This document shows positions 247 to 33,125 of a stretch of DNA of 41,045 nt, one piece after another. Source of the stretch: Lachnospiraceae bacterium. Its GTDB lineage: Bacteria; Bacillota; Clostridia; Lachnospirales; Lachnospiraceae. Both the position numbers and the translations under genes were made by a program. The notes under the pieces are model-generated. The model worked only from the letters and a program-made list of their open reading frames with translations, was not told the DNA's origin and did no database searches. The stretch lies in assembly GCA_017437065.1 (NCBI GenBank), contig JAFSBX010000015.1, positions 1-41,045 on the forward strand, read 5' to 3'. Position 1 is the stretch's first letter, and each line of letters starts with the position of its first letter.

Positions 247-275
247 TTGACATGCAGATATACCAACAATATAAT
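247..275 (+). promoter_or_regulatory. Sigma-A promoter of the Rpn/ATPase pair
   Basis: A perfect -35 TTGACA (247-252) and a perfect -10 TATAAT (270-275) are separated by 17 bases. Transcription would start near 282, leaving a leader of about 190 nt before the start codon at 475. The flanking stretch 113-246 is AT-rich, and I see no gene in it. Confidence 0.85.
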
Positions 276-282
276 AGACTTT

Positions 283-474
283 ATAAAACATCTTTGTGAA
301 AATCTATTCACTGTATCATACAGATAGAAGTCTTGGGCATTTCGCCAATATTTTCACAAAATCATGATCAATTAAATATTGGCAGGCGTGGAGACTTTGC
401 TGTACAATGAAGAAAGTTGTTCTGTTTCTCTATAGCCTGCAAGTGCATTTTCTGGCATTGGAAAGGGAGGGTAT
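283..474 (+). promoter_or_regulatory. Structured 5' leader of the first Rpn gene
   Basis: This transcribed leader can form two strong helices that exclude each other. TTTGTGAAAAT (293-303) pairs with ATTTTCACAAA (350-360), and GCCAATATTT (344-353) pairs with AAATATTGGC (374-383); both need bases 350-353. A small hairpin CTGTA/TACAG lies between them. Four short blocks (304-310, 328-348, 369-377, 382-395) recur in the same order in the leader of the other Rpn gene near 31.9 kb. The SD GGGAGG (465-470) is close to the ATG. I do not recognise it as a named RNA family. Confidence 0.55.
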
Positions 475-1389
475 ATGAGTTATACGAACAAAAAATTTGA
501 AGAATTGAATGTAATTGATGATTTTCTGATGAACGCAGTTGCGACGGACGAAACGGTTGGAATTCCGTTTTGCAGGGCAATTCTTTCAGTATTGCTACAA
601 CGTAAAATAGGAAAAATCAGGGTGATGGCACAACGTACTATTCCTGCATTGGCTCCTACGAAAAGAGGGATTCGATTGGACGTAGAAGTGGAGGAGTATG
701 GTGAAGAAGCAGACATTAGTTTGCCGCCGGTCAACTTGTATGATGTAGAACCGAATTTACAGAAAAATATAAATTTACCAAAGCATAACCGCTTTTATCA
801 GGCAAAGATAGATAGCAGACGTTTGAGAAGTGGTGAAAAAGATTTCTCCAAATTGCCGAATCTGTATGTTATTAGTATTACGGATTTTGATCCGTTTGGG
901 CATGATTATATGATGTACACGATTGAGAATCAGTGTAAAGAAATACCGGATTTACATTATAAAGATGGATTGCAGTTTATTTATTTTTATACAAAGGGAA
1001 ATAAAGGTGGAAATGAAGAAATAAAAGCAATGCTGAATTATATTCAGAATAGTACGGAAAAGAATGCGACGAATAGTGTTATTCGAGAAATTCATAAATA
1101 CGTTGAAGACGTGAGACTTCAACCGGAGGTGAAAGAAGAGTATATGACGTTGGAAGATATTATTTATTTTGAGAGAGAAGAGGAAAGGGTACAGGCAATC
1201 CTTGATTTGTTGGAGGATTATGGCGAGATTCCGGATACATTAAAACAACGTTTAGAGGAAGAAATAAGATTTGATGTTCTGAAAGCGTGGCATAAACTGG
1301 CTGCAAAAGTTGAAAGTATATCAGAATTTGAAGAAAAAATGGAAGCAGTAAGGGAATCCGTATTAAAACAACAAGGGAGAACAACATGA
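475..1389 (+). CDS. Rpn-family recombination-promoting nuclease / putative transposase (PD-(D/E)XK)
   Basis: This 304-residue protein resembles the PDDEXK_2 branch of the Rpn family, whose members are DNA endonucleases that promote RecA-independent recombination. Visible family features are the N-terminal FEELNVIDDFLMNAV segment, GIRLDVEVEE (catalytic Asp region, about residue 70), YDVEPN (about 90), HNRFYQAKIDS (about 105) and LPNLYVISITDFDPFG (about 130). Relatives usually read YDIEMQ where this one reads YDVEPN, so the Glu is kept but the polar partner two residues on is Asn, and activity may be altered. The C-terminal 80 residues are charged and helical. The stop overlaps the ATPase start (ATGA), so the two are probably translationally coupled. 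SD GGGAGG lies 4 bases before the ATG. No terminal inverted repeats are seen, so this is not an insertion sequence in itself. Confidence 0.8.
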   Translation: MSYTNKKFEELNVIDDFLMNAVATDETVGIPFCRAILSVLLQRKIGKIRVMAQRTIPALAPTKRGIRLDVEVEEYGEEADISLPPVNLYDVEPNLQKNINLPKHNRFYQAKIDSRRLRSGEKDFSKLPNLYVISITDFDPFGHDYMMYTIENQCKEIPDLHYKDGLQFIYFYTKGNKGGNEEIKAMLNYIQNSTEKNATNSVIREIHKYVEDVRLQPEVKEEYMTLEDIIYFEREEERVQAILDLLEDYGEIPDTLKQRLEEEIRFDVLKAWHKLAAKVESISEFEEKMEAVRESVLKQQGRTT

Positions 1390-3222: not shown

Positions 3223-3406
3223 GGGAAAATAAATATTAGTTTTAGAAAATAATGTATAAAGAATAGAAAAAATACTGAGGTATAAATAAACTGAATGAGA
3301 AATACCTTGGCATATATTAATAAAGTGCAAAAAAATAAGTTAAAAAACACAGAGTTATTGTAATTAATCAACAAAAATATTAATTGTAAATTAGCTAAAA
3401 AATCAA

Positions 3407-3435
3407 TTTAGAAAAAGGAAAATTTATGGTATAGT
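3407..3435 (+). promoter_or_regulatory. Probable promoter of the mannanase gene
   Basis: TTTAGA (3407-3412) and TATAGT (3430-3435) are separated by 17 bases, upstream of an AAGGAG-type SD and the ATG at 3482. The -35 box is weak, so an activator may be involved. Confidence 0.45.
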
Positions 3436-3481
3436 TTAATGGTACGTAGACTTATATAAGCTACATGAAAGGAGAAAGCAA

Positions 3482-6400
3482 ATGGTATTGGGAAAGGTAA
3501 AAAAGTTATTTAAAAGAGCTATAACCGTAACTTTAGCAACGGCTATGGTTGTAACATCTATTCCCGTTTCTGCCAATGCCCAGGAATTGGGGCAAAGCAC
3601 AGAAGAAATTGTGGTAGAAACAGAAGAAACAACAGTAGAAGAAACCGAAGCAGAAGAGGCTGTTACGGTGGAAACTGCTGAAACAGAGGTAGTAGAAACC
3701 GAAGAAGCTACCACGGTGGAAACCGTTGAGACAGAGGTAGTGGAGACAGAAGAAGCTACTACAGTGGAAGATACTGAAACAGAAGAAACTGGGGAAAATG
3801 AAACAGTAACTGAAACGGAAGAAGTAGTAGAAGAAACTACCATAGTTGAAGAAACAACAGAAGTTGAAACAGTTGTTGTTGAAGAGATAGTTTCTGAAGA
3901 AATTGTCATGAATGGTAATGCAGTGGAGAGTAACAATGCGGCAAGTGATGAAACAGTAGTTTATGAAAGTGATACTGTTGTTACATCAGATGCTATTGAT
4001 TTTTCCGAACTAACAGAAGAAGACTGGGGAAAAAAAGTAACAGTTACATATGCATATACAAATGATGTTGTACGAACTGTAGAAGATAAATATACAGTAG
4101 ATGCAACAGTTACAATTGACGCAACAGCTTATCAAACACTGGAAACAGAAGGAAATTATATCAAAATCCAAGGAATTGTAAAGCTTAATGACTGGGTGTA
4201 TACAAAGAGTGATGCGGTTGTAGAGTTAAAAGCTTCTGATTTTACAAAAGAAGGAGAGAACTATACAACAGATATTCAGTTTGACTATACAGACAAAGCC
4301 GGAACATTAATGGAAGTTGACTTTGAAATCGTTGGAGTTGGTTTCAAAGGTGCAGTTAGTGTTGATAATGTAACAGTAGCTAATGTTGAAAAGCAGGCCG
4401 AGTCTTATGAAGATGTTGTGTATGAAAATGAAACAAGTGTTGCATCAGACGCTATTGATTTTTCAGAATTGACAGAAGAAGACTGGACGAAAAAAGCAAC
4501 AGTTACATATGCATACACAAACAATGATGCAGTCAATGTAATAGATAAATACAGAGTAGATACAAAGGTTACAATTAATGAAACAACATATCAGACACTC
4601 GGAACAGAGGGAAATTATGTCAAAATCCAGGGAATTGTAAAAATCAATGACTGGGTGTATACAAAGAGTGATGCGGTTGTAGAGTTAAAAGCAGCAGACT
4701 TTACAAAAGAAGGAGAAAACTATACAGCGGATGTTCAGTTTGAGTATACAGACAAAGCCGGAACATTAATGGAAATTGATTTTGAAATTGTTGGAGTTGG
4801 TTTTGCGGGTATAGTTAATTTTAGTGATGTAAAAGTTGTTAACATTACAACAGAGAAACCACCGTTAGAAGAAAAAGATCCGACTATTTTATCTGACCTT
4901 TCCACAGAAGCAGATTTTAATAACTGGAAAGCAGAAACAGGTTGGGATTATTACCATGGCGGAACTGAGAATGCAGCACCTGTTATTGCGTATGAGAATG
5001 CAAACCAGCGTTTAAAAGTGTCTCTTGATTATTCTGCTAACTCTGCATCTACATGGAGTGAAGCTAAGGCAACTTTCACACCGACAGAGGCTGCTGATGT
5101 AAGTCAGTATAATCAGATTAGTGTAGATTTCATTTATCCGGATGCATTAGACGGAACAAAGATGAAATTCTTTGCGGCAGGTGTGATCGAAAAAGATACT
5201 GCCATTGATGAAAGTACAGCAGAAGTTTTGGCAGATGGTATGAAAAAGGTTACCGTTACAATGTCCTTCTCACCTACTGCTTCACCGCTTGAATCACTTA
5301 CTATCGGTATTATCGGTGTTTCAACAAGCTTTAAAGGAGATGTGTACTTAGATAATCTGGTATTATCCCAGAAAAATCTTGCAGAAGATTTTGTTGAGAT
5401 TACTTCCGTACCAAGTGAAGGTTCAGCAGCGACACTTACAACGAAACCTTCAAGTATCAAACTTACAGATAAAAATGCAGGTGACAGTGTAAAAGCATTG
5501 TATACATATTTAGCAACATTAGCAAATGATGATCAGGTATTATTCGGACATCAGAATGATATCAATTCAAAGATTAGTACTTCTGCAACATTAGGTGATG
5601 TATATGATATTACAGGACAGGTAAGTGGTCTGTATGGTATTGATACATTATCACTTACAGGTTCGGAAGCAGGAGGAACAGATGCAAAATCAGCACTTGA
5701 GAATTCTGTTAAGTATAGTAAACAGGCAGCTGAAAATGGTGCAATTGTAACCCTTTCTGCACATATGCCTAATGTTTCTAACAGCAAGGTTGTAAAAAAT
5801 GAAGATGGTACCTATGACTTCTTCCAGTGTGATTTCTCAGAGTCAAAGGATTTATCTAATGATATCGCAAAGAAGATTCTTCCGGGTGGGGAATATAATG
5901 TAGTATATAATGCATATCTTGATATAATTGTTGACTATGCTACACAGTTACAGGAAGCAAATATTCCTATTATTTTCCGTCCGCTTCATGAGAATACAGG
6001 TAACTGGTTCTGGTGGGGATCTTCTAATACAGAAGAAACTTATAAGTCATTGTTCAGATATACAAGAGATTATATCGAAAGCAAGGGTGTTCATAACATG
6101 CTCTGGGTATACTCTCCGAATGGACCACTTACTACAGAAGAAGAATATTTAAGCTATTATCCGGGTGATGAATATATTGATATTTTGGCATTTGATTATT
6201 ATGATGATTACAACACATACCCGGCTACATCCGATGGTTCTTTCTTTACTAATTTGGACAACACTTGTAAAGTAGTTTCTTCCTTAGCTGAGAAAAGAGG
6301 AAAAGTAGCAGCTATTTCAGAATGTGGTGTCAGAGTCATGAAAAAAGATGGTTCTGATAACGAAGGTCTTCTTGTGAAAGGAAACCCTGTTGGTACAGCA

Positions 6401-9877: not shown

Positions 9878-10175
9878 ATGTGACAAACGCCATTTCAAAG
9901 CCTTGAAGCGTCATGTTGCACAAAGTTATTTCAGCATTTGTGACTGGTGCAGGATATTAGATTTTCTTAATGTTCTGTATATGATTAGCAATTCGGTGGC
10001 ATGGATGCCGGCGAAAGGCTGAAATTGAGCCACGATGGCGAATTTCAGCCGGTTGCGTCCGTTTTTCATATACTATCGCAGAACATTTAGAAAATCTTAT
10101 ATCCGAAACGTGGAACAAAGGATGAAATAACTTTGTGCAACATGACGACCACAACCTAAAAAGCATTTGTCACAT
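9878..10175 (+). repeat. 298-bp foldback (long imperfect inverted repeat) in the ileS leader
   Basis: Almost the whole stretch folds back on itself. ATGTGACAAA (9878-9887) pairs with 10166-10175; 9909-9933 pairs perfectly over 25 bp with 10123-10147; GGATAT-AGATTTTCT-AATGTTCTG on the left pairs with 10080-10104, with two mismatches; and GGCTGAAATT (10017-10026) pairs with 10041-10050 around a 14-nt apex. There is no open reading frame of note. It could be a MITE-like element without a visible target duplication, or a structured RNA domain of the ileS transcript. Confidence 0.8.
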
Positions 10176-31817: not shown

Positions 31818-31846
31818 TTGCACAATTATTTTGTGCATGTTATTGT
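31818..31846 (+). promoter_or_regulatory. Promoter with overlapping dyad, second Rpn gene
   Basis: TTGCAC (31818-31823) and TATTGT (31841-31846) are 17 bases apart. TGCACAA (31819-31825) and TTGTGCA (31831-31837) form a perfect dyad across the -35 box and spacer, as an operator would. Transcription would start near 31853. Confidence 0.5.
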
Positions 31847-31852
31847 AAAATT

Positions 31853-32042
31853 ATTATTAAAACATATTTGCATATAGAAGCATTTTCTGGTTTTTATATG
31901 TTCCACATTTCGGAAGAACTATTCAGAACTTCTCGAAATGTCTAAGTTCTGGCTTTTCGCCAAAAATTCAAAGCAAACAATTTAATGCAGACAGGCGAAA
32001 AGACATTCTCCTGTGGACTGCATGACAACAGGAGGAAAAAGT
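31853..32042 (+). promoter_or_regulatory. Structured 5' leader of the second Rpn gene with buried ribosome binding site
   Basis: Three hairpins follow each other. ACATTTCG (31905-31912) pairs with CGAAATGT (31934-31941), plus GAAG/CTTC. CTTTTCGCC (31953-31961) pairs with GGCGAAAAG (31994-32002). CTCCTGT (32008-32014) pairs with ACAGGAG (32028-32034), which contains most of the SD AGGAGG (32030-32035). The leader shares ordered sequence blocks with the leader at 283-474. This suggests translational control by an RNA switch, protein or trans factor; no known class is recognised. Confidence 0.6.
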
Positions 32043-33125
32043 ATGAGCAGTAACGTTAACTGTGTCGAAGAACAAAGAATGCATGGAGCGAATGCAGTAA
32101 GAAATACCAACAGCAAGAACATTTTTCATGAACCGTTGCTTTATGCCCAGTTTCTTAGGGACAATTTAAATGTTCCGATGTTGAAAAATGTACAACCGGA
32201 GGATATTGAAGATGTTTCAGAACAATATCGACCGTATCTTGGAATTGAGTTTGAATCGGATACAGTAAAGAAAGTACGTATCAGAGATGCTTTCGGGGAG
32301 AGGTTAGAAACGCCTTTATATTTGATTTCGCTGACAGAGCATAAAAGCAGGGTGGACTACAATGTAGCTATGCAGCTGTTAAAGTATATGGCATGTATCT
32401 GGCAGGAGTATGCAAAAGAGCAGGAAAAAGAATGTCCGGGATGTACGAAAAATAAAAGCTTTCGATATCCACCGATTCTACCAATTGTATATTATGAAGG
32501 CAGGGAAAATTGGACGGCGGATATTCATTTAAAAGACAGAATTATGCTGAATGAAATTTTTCGGGATTGTATACCGGATTTTTCGTATGAAGTTATAAAA
32601 TTACATGCATATGGAAATGAGGAATTGTTAAATCGCGGAGATGAGATGTCGTTGATTATGATGTTTAATAAAATTCAGGATGCAGTGGATCTTGAGAAGT
32701 TTCTGGAGATTCCAACAGAGAAGCTGAACGGTATTATAAAAGATACTCCGGAATATATCATAGAAGTAATAGCATCTGTTATGAAAGCTCTGTGTGTGAA
32801 AATAGGTGCTACGGAGGAAGAAACAGACCAATGCATTCAAAAAGTAAGGGAGCGAAAAATGGGATATTTATTTGAAAACATGGAAAAGATGAATATACAG
32901 GAAGAGCGCAAACTGAGAGCAGAGGCAGAAGAAAATTTAAGAAAGGGATTGGAAGCAGCGAAAGAGGCAGCGAAAAAAGCAGCGGAGGAAGCTGCGATTC
33001 AAAGTACGATAGAAACCTGTCAGGAGCTTGGAGCAACAAAAGAAGTTGCGTTGAATAAAGTTATGGAGAAATTAAAACTGAACCGCATAGAAGCGGAAAA
33101 GAAGCTTGCAGAATACTGGAAGTAA
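32043..33125 (+). CDS. Rpn-family recombination-promoting nuclease / putative transposase (YhgA-like)
   Basis: This 360-residue protein of the YhgA-like (transposase_31) branch of PD-(D/E)XK nucleases has several family landmarks: NIFHEPLLYAQFLRDNL, the Asp in FESDTVKKVRI (about residue 75), LYLISLTEHKSRVDYNVAMQLLKYM with the Glu-His-Lys core (about 100), and YPPILPIVYYEGRENW (about 145). A helical region follows, then an Ala/Glu/Lys-rich coiled coil (about 280-320) and a short C-terminal helix. It is intact. ATG 32043 is chosen because AGGAGG lies 7 bases before it; an in-frame ATG at 32013 would lie inside the SD-burying hairpin. It is not closely similar to the other Rpn protein in this window, yet their leaders are related. 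Confidence 0.8.
   Translation: MSSNVNCVEEQRMHGANAVRNTNSKNIFHEPLLYAQFLRDNLNVPMLKNVQPEDIEDVSEQYRPYLGIEFESDTVKKVRIRDAFGERLETPLYLISLTEHKSRVDYNVAMQLLKYMACIWQEYAKEQEKECPGCTKNKSFRYPPILPIVYYEGRENWTADIHLKDRIMLNEIFRDCIPDFSYEVIKLHAYGNEELLNRGDEMSLIMMFNKIQDAVDLEKFLEIPTEKLNGIIKDTPEYIIEVIASVMKALCVKIGATEEETDQCIQKVRERKMGYLFENMEKMNIQEERKLRAEAEENLRKGLEAAKEAAKKAAEEAAIQSTIETCQELGATKEVALNKVMEKLKLNRIEAEKKLAEYWK

Follow-up and report, generated by a model that had tools for sequence, protein, structure and literature searches.

The stretch of DNA analysed here, which we refer to as the window, spans 41,045 nt and contains two nuclease genes, here termed A and B, each with a leader of its own. Gene A encodes an Rpn-type PD-(D/E)XK protein that matches TIGR01784 below the cut-off of that family and no Pfam family at E<=0.001, and the product of gene B, read from the ATG at 32043, is an Rpn protein of the Transposase_31 (YhgA-like) branch. 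The two proteins give no blastp match to each other at E<=1, in agreement with the initial annotation, which had placed them in different Rpn branches. The genes and the features of their leaders are as follows.

247-275 (+): promoter-like site of the gene A leader, TTGACA-17-TATAAT, identified by eye
304-325 (+): block CTATTCA of the gene A leader with its predicted upstream hairpin, from fold prediction
336-356 (+): gene A core, with GGC at 336-338, loop AUUUC at 339-343, GCC at 344-346 and a tail running to UUUUCA at 351-356
345-382 (+): alternative long stem of the gene A leader, in which CCAAUAUUU (345-353) pairs with AAAUAUUGG (374-382), predicted in the minimum-energy fold
475-1389 (+): gene A, encoding a 304-aa Rpn-type PD-(D/E)XK protein (TIGR01784, E 1.5e-9, below cut-off)
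31818-31846 (+): promoter-like site of the gene B leader, TTGCAC-17-TATTGT, identified by eye; the spacing is similar in locus L012
31951-31970 (+): gene B core, with GGC at 31951-31953, loop UUUUC at 31954-31958, GCC at 31959-31961 and tail AUUCA at 31966-31970
31953-32002 (+): alternative long stem of the gene B leader, in which CUUUUCGCC (31953-31961) pairs with GGCGAAAAG (31994-32002), predicted in the minimum-energy fold
32008-32034 (+): gene B anti-Shine-Dalgarno (anti-SD) hairpin, CUCCUGU (32008-32014) with ACAGGAG (32028-32034), predicted in the minimum-energy fold
32043-33125 (+): gene B, Rpn protein of 360 aa (PF04754, E 1.4e-18)

Ahead of gene A (start at 475) and gene B (start at 32043), the two leaders share four blocks and a following AGAC in identical order, at the positions first reported for them: CTATTCA (304 and 31919), AAGTCTTGGGCATTTCGCCAA (328-348) with its counterpart AAGTTCTGGCTTTTCGCCAA (31944-31963), CAATTAAAT (starting at 369) with CAATTTAAT (starting at 31978), GCAGGCG (382) with ACAGGCG (31991), and AGAC at 392 and 32001. 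The leader length of about 190 nt originally proposed likewise agrees with the promoter-like sites listed above. Local alignment of the two leaders scores 58, against a mean of 32.2 for dinucleotide shuffles, of which only 1 in 1000 reached that score (largest, 61); none of the 1330 tiles of the window did so (best tile, 56), and the match is well above chance. The pattern TTTCGCCAAN{10,40}CAGGCG occurs at exactly two sites in the 3.9 Mb of the source genome, an assembly listed as 5.58% contaminated, and both are the leaders in the window; the control count was zero, and no site arose in 100 shuffles of the window.

A conserved hairpin core and its range

A longer pattern, scanned over 195 genomes including the source genome, returned three sites, namely the two window leaders and L012, which belongs to a second species of the genus and is followed by a third PD-(D/E)XK-like gene, this one with a frameshift. 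These three nuclease leaders were used to build a covariance model, R1, which was searched in 116 genomes. Most R1 matches were weak, and among them were similar-looking leaders: L045, which lies elsewhere in the source genome, on a different contig, and precedes a gene A paralogue, L044, before a Uma2 gene (PF05685), L017, before a homologue of gene B, and L018, before a PDDEXK_2 gene; for the minus-strand matches, the downstream gene context rests on five of them. Unexpectedly for a model trained on nuclease leaders only, R1 also recovered three recA leaders (L016, L021 and L050). A pattern scan of named genomes yielded 30 stretches, and the 16 inspected (17 sites) included nuclease leaders in Hungatella, in Hespellia (two tandem copies) and in two other Lachnospiraceae/Clostridia records, a recA leader in Blautia, and chance matches, such as one followed by an rpoB-like gene as judged by eye (L059) and one followed by no gene (L068). 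Two further models were then available: R2, built from 13 sequences and searched in 397 genomes of the family at E<=0.1, where it gave 79 matches in 62 genomes, and R3, built from 68 sequences. The training sets of both retained the chance-match sites of the pattern scan plus L078, with its antirepressor-like gene, and ten of 75 sources, mostly weak ones, were excluded from R3 by hand (L005, which had no match, L106, L121, L124, L125, L133, L140, L143, L145 and L151).

The shared core thus delimited consists of a pyrimidine-rich tract, in which UUUCUU and UUUCAU are frequent, followed by a short stem with the loop N(N)UUC, and then AUUUCA, the commonest form being GGC-NUUUC-GCC. More precisely, the loop ends in UUC or AUC, and a few nucleotides after the 3' strand of the stem there follows UUUCA, UUUCC or AUUCA. 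Loops such as AUUUC, GUUUC, UUUC, UUUUC and AUAUC were found, with the G after the loop paired, and the near-invariant letters are the final UC of the loop and the second U of the tail. The gene A core is matched by R1, R2 and R3, and the gene B core is the best match of both R2 and R3, each leader being part of the training sets concerned. The blocks CAATTAAAT, GCAGGCG and AGAC lie outside this core and are a downstream module of long-form leaders.

The stems observed include GGC/GCC, GCC/GGC, GAC/GUC, GUC/GAC, AGC/GCU and AUC/GAU. In a first alignment of 77 distinct rows, 16 cells are changed on both sides of the stem, against 2.7 in shuffles, and in a second one of 88 rows the figure is 24 against 4.7, with none of 500 shuffles as high in either case; sliding the partner strand gave at most 8 such cells. 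Both alignments were fitted to the model stem, and on this model-fitted basis the element has the compensatory changes of a structured cis-regulatory leader RNA. The innermost C-G of the stem is invariant, the outer pair fails in 23 of the 88 rows, and the number of pairs with changes on both sides, three, was reached by 17 of 500 shuffles. The covariance model and the search of related genomes that the initial annotation had suggested did recover further copies upstream of Rpn-family genes, with compensatory changes.

The suggested comparison with Rfam found no family for these copies. In Rfam 15 there is no match among 20 loci with the element, and the sole match at the gathering threshold in the whole window is a TwoAYGGAY RNA at 9945-10111; on the two window leaders, searches at E<=5 gave only weak, chance-like matches, all below threshold. 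A known Rfam element was therefore rejected, as no family reached the gathering threshold on the window leaders or the 20 loci. A literature search, which covered a 2017 motif survey only through Rfam, found no paper on such an element, nor one on the control of DNA uptake and recombination in Lachnospiraceae, and the terms recA, COG0606 and competence are absent from the motif table of PMC2864571.

Among 391 Clostridia genomes, R3 at E<=0.05 matched 6 of the 16 genomes of the same family, the source genome included, and 7 of the 375 others. The latter figure is below the approximately 19 chance matches that the E-value allows, so that a Clostridia-wide element was rejected; the element is nearly restricted to the Lachnospiraceae, with almost nothing outside the family. 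A good R3 match in another family of the class (L245, 1501-1564, minus strand, E 1.9e-4) lies shortly before the SD sequence and start of a secreted-protein gene and may be a real exception. A phage-borne element was also discarded, since no viral contig carried the pattern in the one scan run.

Genes behind the element

To assign the genes downstream of the R2 matches, BLAST comparison with typed references was combined with Pfam, NCBIfam and inspection by eye. The 79 matches precede 21 PD-(D/E)XK nuclease genes (several Rpn branches and Uma2), 12 recA genes, 6 comM/yifB genes, 6 toxin-antitoxin genes (four HicB-type, which begin 70-294 nt downstream of the match, one PHD-like and one ParE-like), 2 Tad-pilus-type operons, single Ser/Thr kinase, LPD3 and DUF5688 genes, and 2 members of an unnamed family (L090 and L093). 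For some of the nucleases the profile score is weak or below its cut-off, or the assignment comes from a BLAST match to another member; four (L012, L061, L105 and L109) have no profile match in the searches made. Eight of the 79 are R2 training sequences (seven nucleases and one recA); without them, the remaining 71 comprise 14 nucleases, 11 recA, 6 comM, 6 toxin-antitoxin and 2 Tad-type matches. Given the E-value limit, chance could account for about 40 of the 79, a number large enough to accommodate the 27 matches that fall outside all named groups.

The notion of an Rpn-only leader was rejected, because the core is not confined to Rpn genes and also stands ahead of recA, comM, Tad-pilus-type operons and toxin-antitoxin genes. 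The common cis-regulatory RNA initially proposed for the two Rpn genes was consequently right in kind and too narrow in its range of targets.

Within the source genome, the seven R3 matches at E<=0.3 comprise six before Rpn-type genes, on five contigs and including three training sequences, and one before recA; at E<=10 there are 13, of which eight precede Rpn-type genes, one recA and four other genes. No R3 match precedes four of the seven loci found in this genome with protein B, and the element is therefore common, not universal, among Rpn-type genes. One of these four, L005, carries a palindrome of other letters at a comparable place.

The recA, comM and comEC upstream regions were also analysed with a fixed scan, which called for a stem of at least 4 pairs, a 4-6 nt loop with TTC or ATC at its end, and a tail of TTTC[AC], TTCCA or ATTCA. 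In the first sets, matches were found in 6 of 30 recA regions (0.36 expected from control sequence), 10 of 30 comM regions (0.21) and 3 of 30 comEC regions (1.4), the recA and comM figures being partly circular because the scan was designed after part of those sets had been viewed. In held-out sets, 7 of 20 recA regions have a match, against a mean of 0.27 and a maximum of 2 in shuffles and none on the reverse strand, and 1 of 20 comM regions does (0.25 in shuffles), with near misses by eye in L286, L294, L298 and L304. R3 matches the leader in 7 of 30 recA loci, in 4 of 30 comM loci at E<=0.5, and in 0 of 30 comEC loci. The membership of recA is thus firm, and that of comM rests mainly on the R2 matches. 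A regulon comprising all of late competence was rejected, given the comEC counts of both R3 and the fixed scan: of the two genes looked for in such a regulon, recA carries the element and comEC does not, so that the association does not extend to all of the DNA-uptake apparatus. Taken together, the target genes point to DNA uptake and recombination, joined by nucleases and toxin-antitoxin genes and with comEC outside.

Several loci have further features of their own. In recA leaders, the SD sequence and start codon that follow the element are in most cases those of a short frame; downstream of this frame comes a promoter-like site, with a palindrome that we take to be LexA-box-like. Downstream of the element, recA leaders such as L084, L107, L122, L165 and L169 carry the conserved stretch GGAGGGATGCC-TTGAGGG-TTTATKGGAC, which holds a short frame such as MPLRVVYWT; this frame is broken in several genomes, so the stretch may act as RNA or promoter and not as a peptide. 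The Tad-pilus-type operons L232 and L233 (by eye, a TadA-like ATPase, CpaE-like proteins and a prepilin peptidase) have the element before their first gene. In L128 (1660-2723, minus strand), two tandem long-form leaders with an identical 63-nt matched sequence precede a ParE-like toxin gene and a Transposase_31-type Rpn gene, and in L061 of Hespellia (3389-4578, minus strand) the leader and an 'EYKSP' PD-(D/E)XK-like gene occur in tandem copies. The toxin-antitoxin leaders L113, L121 and L139 place a strong terminator-like hairpin between promoter-like site and element, its U-tract running into the element.

Position in the leader and long forms

A promoter-like site lies at most 130 nt upstream in 41 of 76 elements, against a mean of 14.7 and a maximum of 22 in shuffles, and the predicted -10 ends 20-93 nt before the hairpin. 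Counted from the start of the hairpin, an SD sequence with start codon is found at 38-66 nt for 41 of the 76 elements, as compared with 11% at random positions. A second group of distances, at 84-104 nt, is made up of L061 (84), L105 (86), gene B (92), L012 (93), L128 (94, twice), L088 (96), L045 (99), L044 (101), L070 (103) and L144 (104); the distance in gene A is 139 nt, and 12 of the 76 elements have no SD sequence and start within 160 nt. The element is accordingly predicted to lie in transcribed 5' leaders, before the ribosome-binding site. The tetranucleotide TCTA is present upstream of 43 of the 76 elements, whereas 200 mononucleotide shuffles averaged 25.6 (largest, 38), and in 15 cases it falls within a predicted loop. 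A general mechanism in which the arms of the hairpin pair with the region around the start codon was rejected, because the mean duplex energy is only 0.6-0.7 kcal/mol better than in mononucleotide shuffles, a gain that composition may explain.

Both window leaders are long forms, and the predicted fold of the gene B leader adds a hairpin that sequesters the SD sequence. Each of the five B-type leaders can form a long stem of 9-10 bp between the element, through its loop and 3' arm, and a strand further downstream whose sequence differs among them (GGCGAAAAG, GGCGGAAAG, GGCGGAGAG and GGCGGAAGG); this stem is equalled by 11-21 of 1000 shuffles per leader. The anti-SD hairpin, as long in only 3 of 1000 shuffles for gene B, is clear in four of the five, and the predicted folds of leader B and L012 contain both structures. 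The pairing proposed to free the SD sequence in an ON state is not significant in the B-type leaders, being matched in length by 65, 66, 69, 379 and 733 of 1000 shuffles. In A-type leaders, a different stem engages the 3' arm of the element; that of gene A is kept in L045 and L044, where CCAACAUUU or CCGACAUUU pairs with AAAUGUUGG. In three of the four A-type leaders (L045, L044 and L088), the strand after the stem forms 8-9 bp with the nucleotides immediately preceding the SD sequence (0-5 of 1000 shuffles as long), and in gene A itself this pairing is at chance level (465 of 1000). No A-type leader has a clear anti-SD, and that of gene A is no better than chance. The suggestion that the leader limits nuclease production is hence plausible for gene B, where the predicted fold would sequester the SD sequence, and is not borne out for gene A.

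Candidate mechanisms

Taking the whole explanation together, we lean towards a cis-regulatory hairpin of the Lachnospiraceae, located in the 5' UTR and read by a trans-acting factor that sets target expression. The conservation, the compensation in the stem, the placement with respect to promoter-like sites and the SD sequence, the near restriction to the family and the gene association are computed; from them we infer the factor, and the direction and trigger of the regulation. A trans-acting RNA-binding factor, either a protein or a small RNA, would recognise the loop and tail of the hairpin and set the translation or stability of the target mRNAs jointly, thereby tying DNA uptake and recombination to nucleases. 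Three features lead us to read the element as a receptor: conservation falls on the unpaired letters of loop and tail, the stem being free to change; the element keeps a preferred SD distance; and long forms build competing stems, and B-type leaders an anti-SD, on the element. In long forms such as that of gene B, the element might, with less confidence, be the receptor of a switch: in the OFF state the downstream strand would capture the loop and 3' arm, leaving the anti-SD to pair with the SD sequence, and in the ON state the small hairpin would be kept and the downstream strand could instead draw the anti-SD away.

The same palindromic core could act at the DNA level, as part of a promoter or as an operator to which the transcription factor of a regulon for DNA repair or competence binds; TTTC recurs every ~10-12 nt in several copies and the gene set resembles a transcriptional regulon. 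We regard this as unlikely, since compensatory stem changes around a constant loop and tail are unlike an operator whose letters are read, and since the element keeps a preferred SD distance and lies 20-93 nt downstream of predicted -10 sites, so that it would be transcribed. Control at the level of transcription, with the hairpin loading an elongation factor such as a NusG paralogue of the LoaP type for pausing or antitermination, appears decidedly unlikely. As described in PMC12691694, LoaP counteracts NusA-dependent termination and recognises a small hairpin in the leader, and the LoaP-binding dfn leader of Bacillus velezensis resembles our element in being a small 5'-leader hairpin that serves several operons through one trans-acting protein. 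Some copies of the element directly follow a terminator-like hairpin (e.g. L113, L090 and L119). The dfn hairpin, however, has a UNCG-type loop, long antibiotic operons and terminators downstream, whereas the element has an N(N)UUC loop with the following G paired, none of its loops being a UNCG tetraloop, and an AUUUCA tail, and stands close to the SD sequence of recombination and nuclease genes, many of them short, with terminator-like hairpins before and not after it.

A constitutive feature of the 5' UTR, enhancing mRNA stability or translation with no regulation, would account for the preferred place before the SD sequence and for the stable hairpins near the 5' end of several leaders. 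It is quite improbable in view of the selectivity of the element, whose seven R3 matches (E<=0.3) in 3.9 Mb all precede Rpn-type genes or recA, and of the SD-sequestering structure added in long forms. A mobile or copied hairpin unit landing near these genes is very improbable indeed: the tandem gene-plus-leader copies in L061 and L128 and the horizontal movement of Rpn genes reported in PMC10327210 speak for it, and the preferred SD distance, the recA loci of many genera and the absence of the pattern from the viral contigs scanned speak against it.

Extending the favoured reading of a hairpin recognised in trans, we may tentatively postulate an RNA regulon of the Lachnospiraceae, in which one dedicated factor would read the UUC-loop hairpin in recA, comM, Tad-pilus-type, PD-(D/E)XK and toxin-antitoxin leaders and control a DNA-uptake-and-recombination state post-transcriptionally, nuclease and toxin genes having been recruited by acquiring the hairpin, some of them with a built-in SD switch. 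The data hint at an unrecognised switch that jointly controls DNA-cutting and recombining genes, recA included. The Lachnospiraceae are abundant gut bacteria, and a single leader element shared by recA, comM, Tad-type pili and Rpn nucleases would, if real, point to a control of their DNA uptake and recombination, with the hairpin, used as bait, providing a direct handle on the regulator.

For the Rpn nucleases, such an element would, if real, add a second restraint to the known internal antitoxin. Rpn proteins are described in PMC10327210 as toxic DNases with internal antitoxins; RpnS restrains the same kind of toxic DNase as the element might, unlike it being a protein made from within the gene, and the words 'leader' and 'UTR' are absent from the main text of that paper.

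Two other known classes invite comparison. SD-sequestering riboswitches and translational leader switches are known as a general kind, and the gene B leader resembles them in its receptor-like hairpin, competing long stem and anti-SD hairpin; the core of the element, on the other hand, is far smaller than a typical aptamer, occurs also without the switch module and suggests no ligand. ANTAR-type tandem-hairpin antiterminator sites are defined by hexaloops and an overlapping terminator, and share with our leaders two successive hairpins with conserved loop letters, whereas the conserved loop of the element has 4-6 nt and ends in UC.

Finally, the TwoAYGGAY RNA of the window (9945-10111, plus strand; Rfam RF01731, 118 bits) immediately precedes a gene that begins at 10135; the protein encoded there matches class I tRNA synthetases (tRNA-synt_1 together with DUF5915) and is presumably of the isoleucyl type. 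Its place before a tRNA synthetase gene is a possible hint to the role of TwoAYGGAY.
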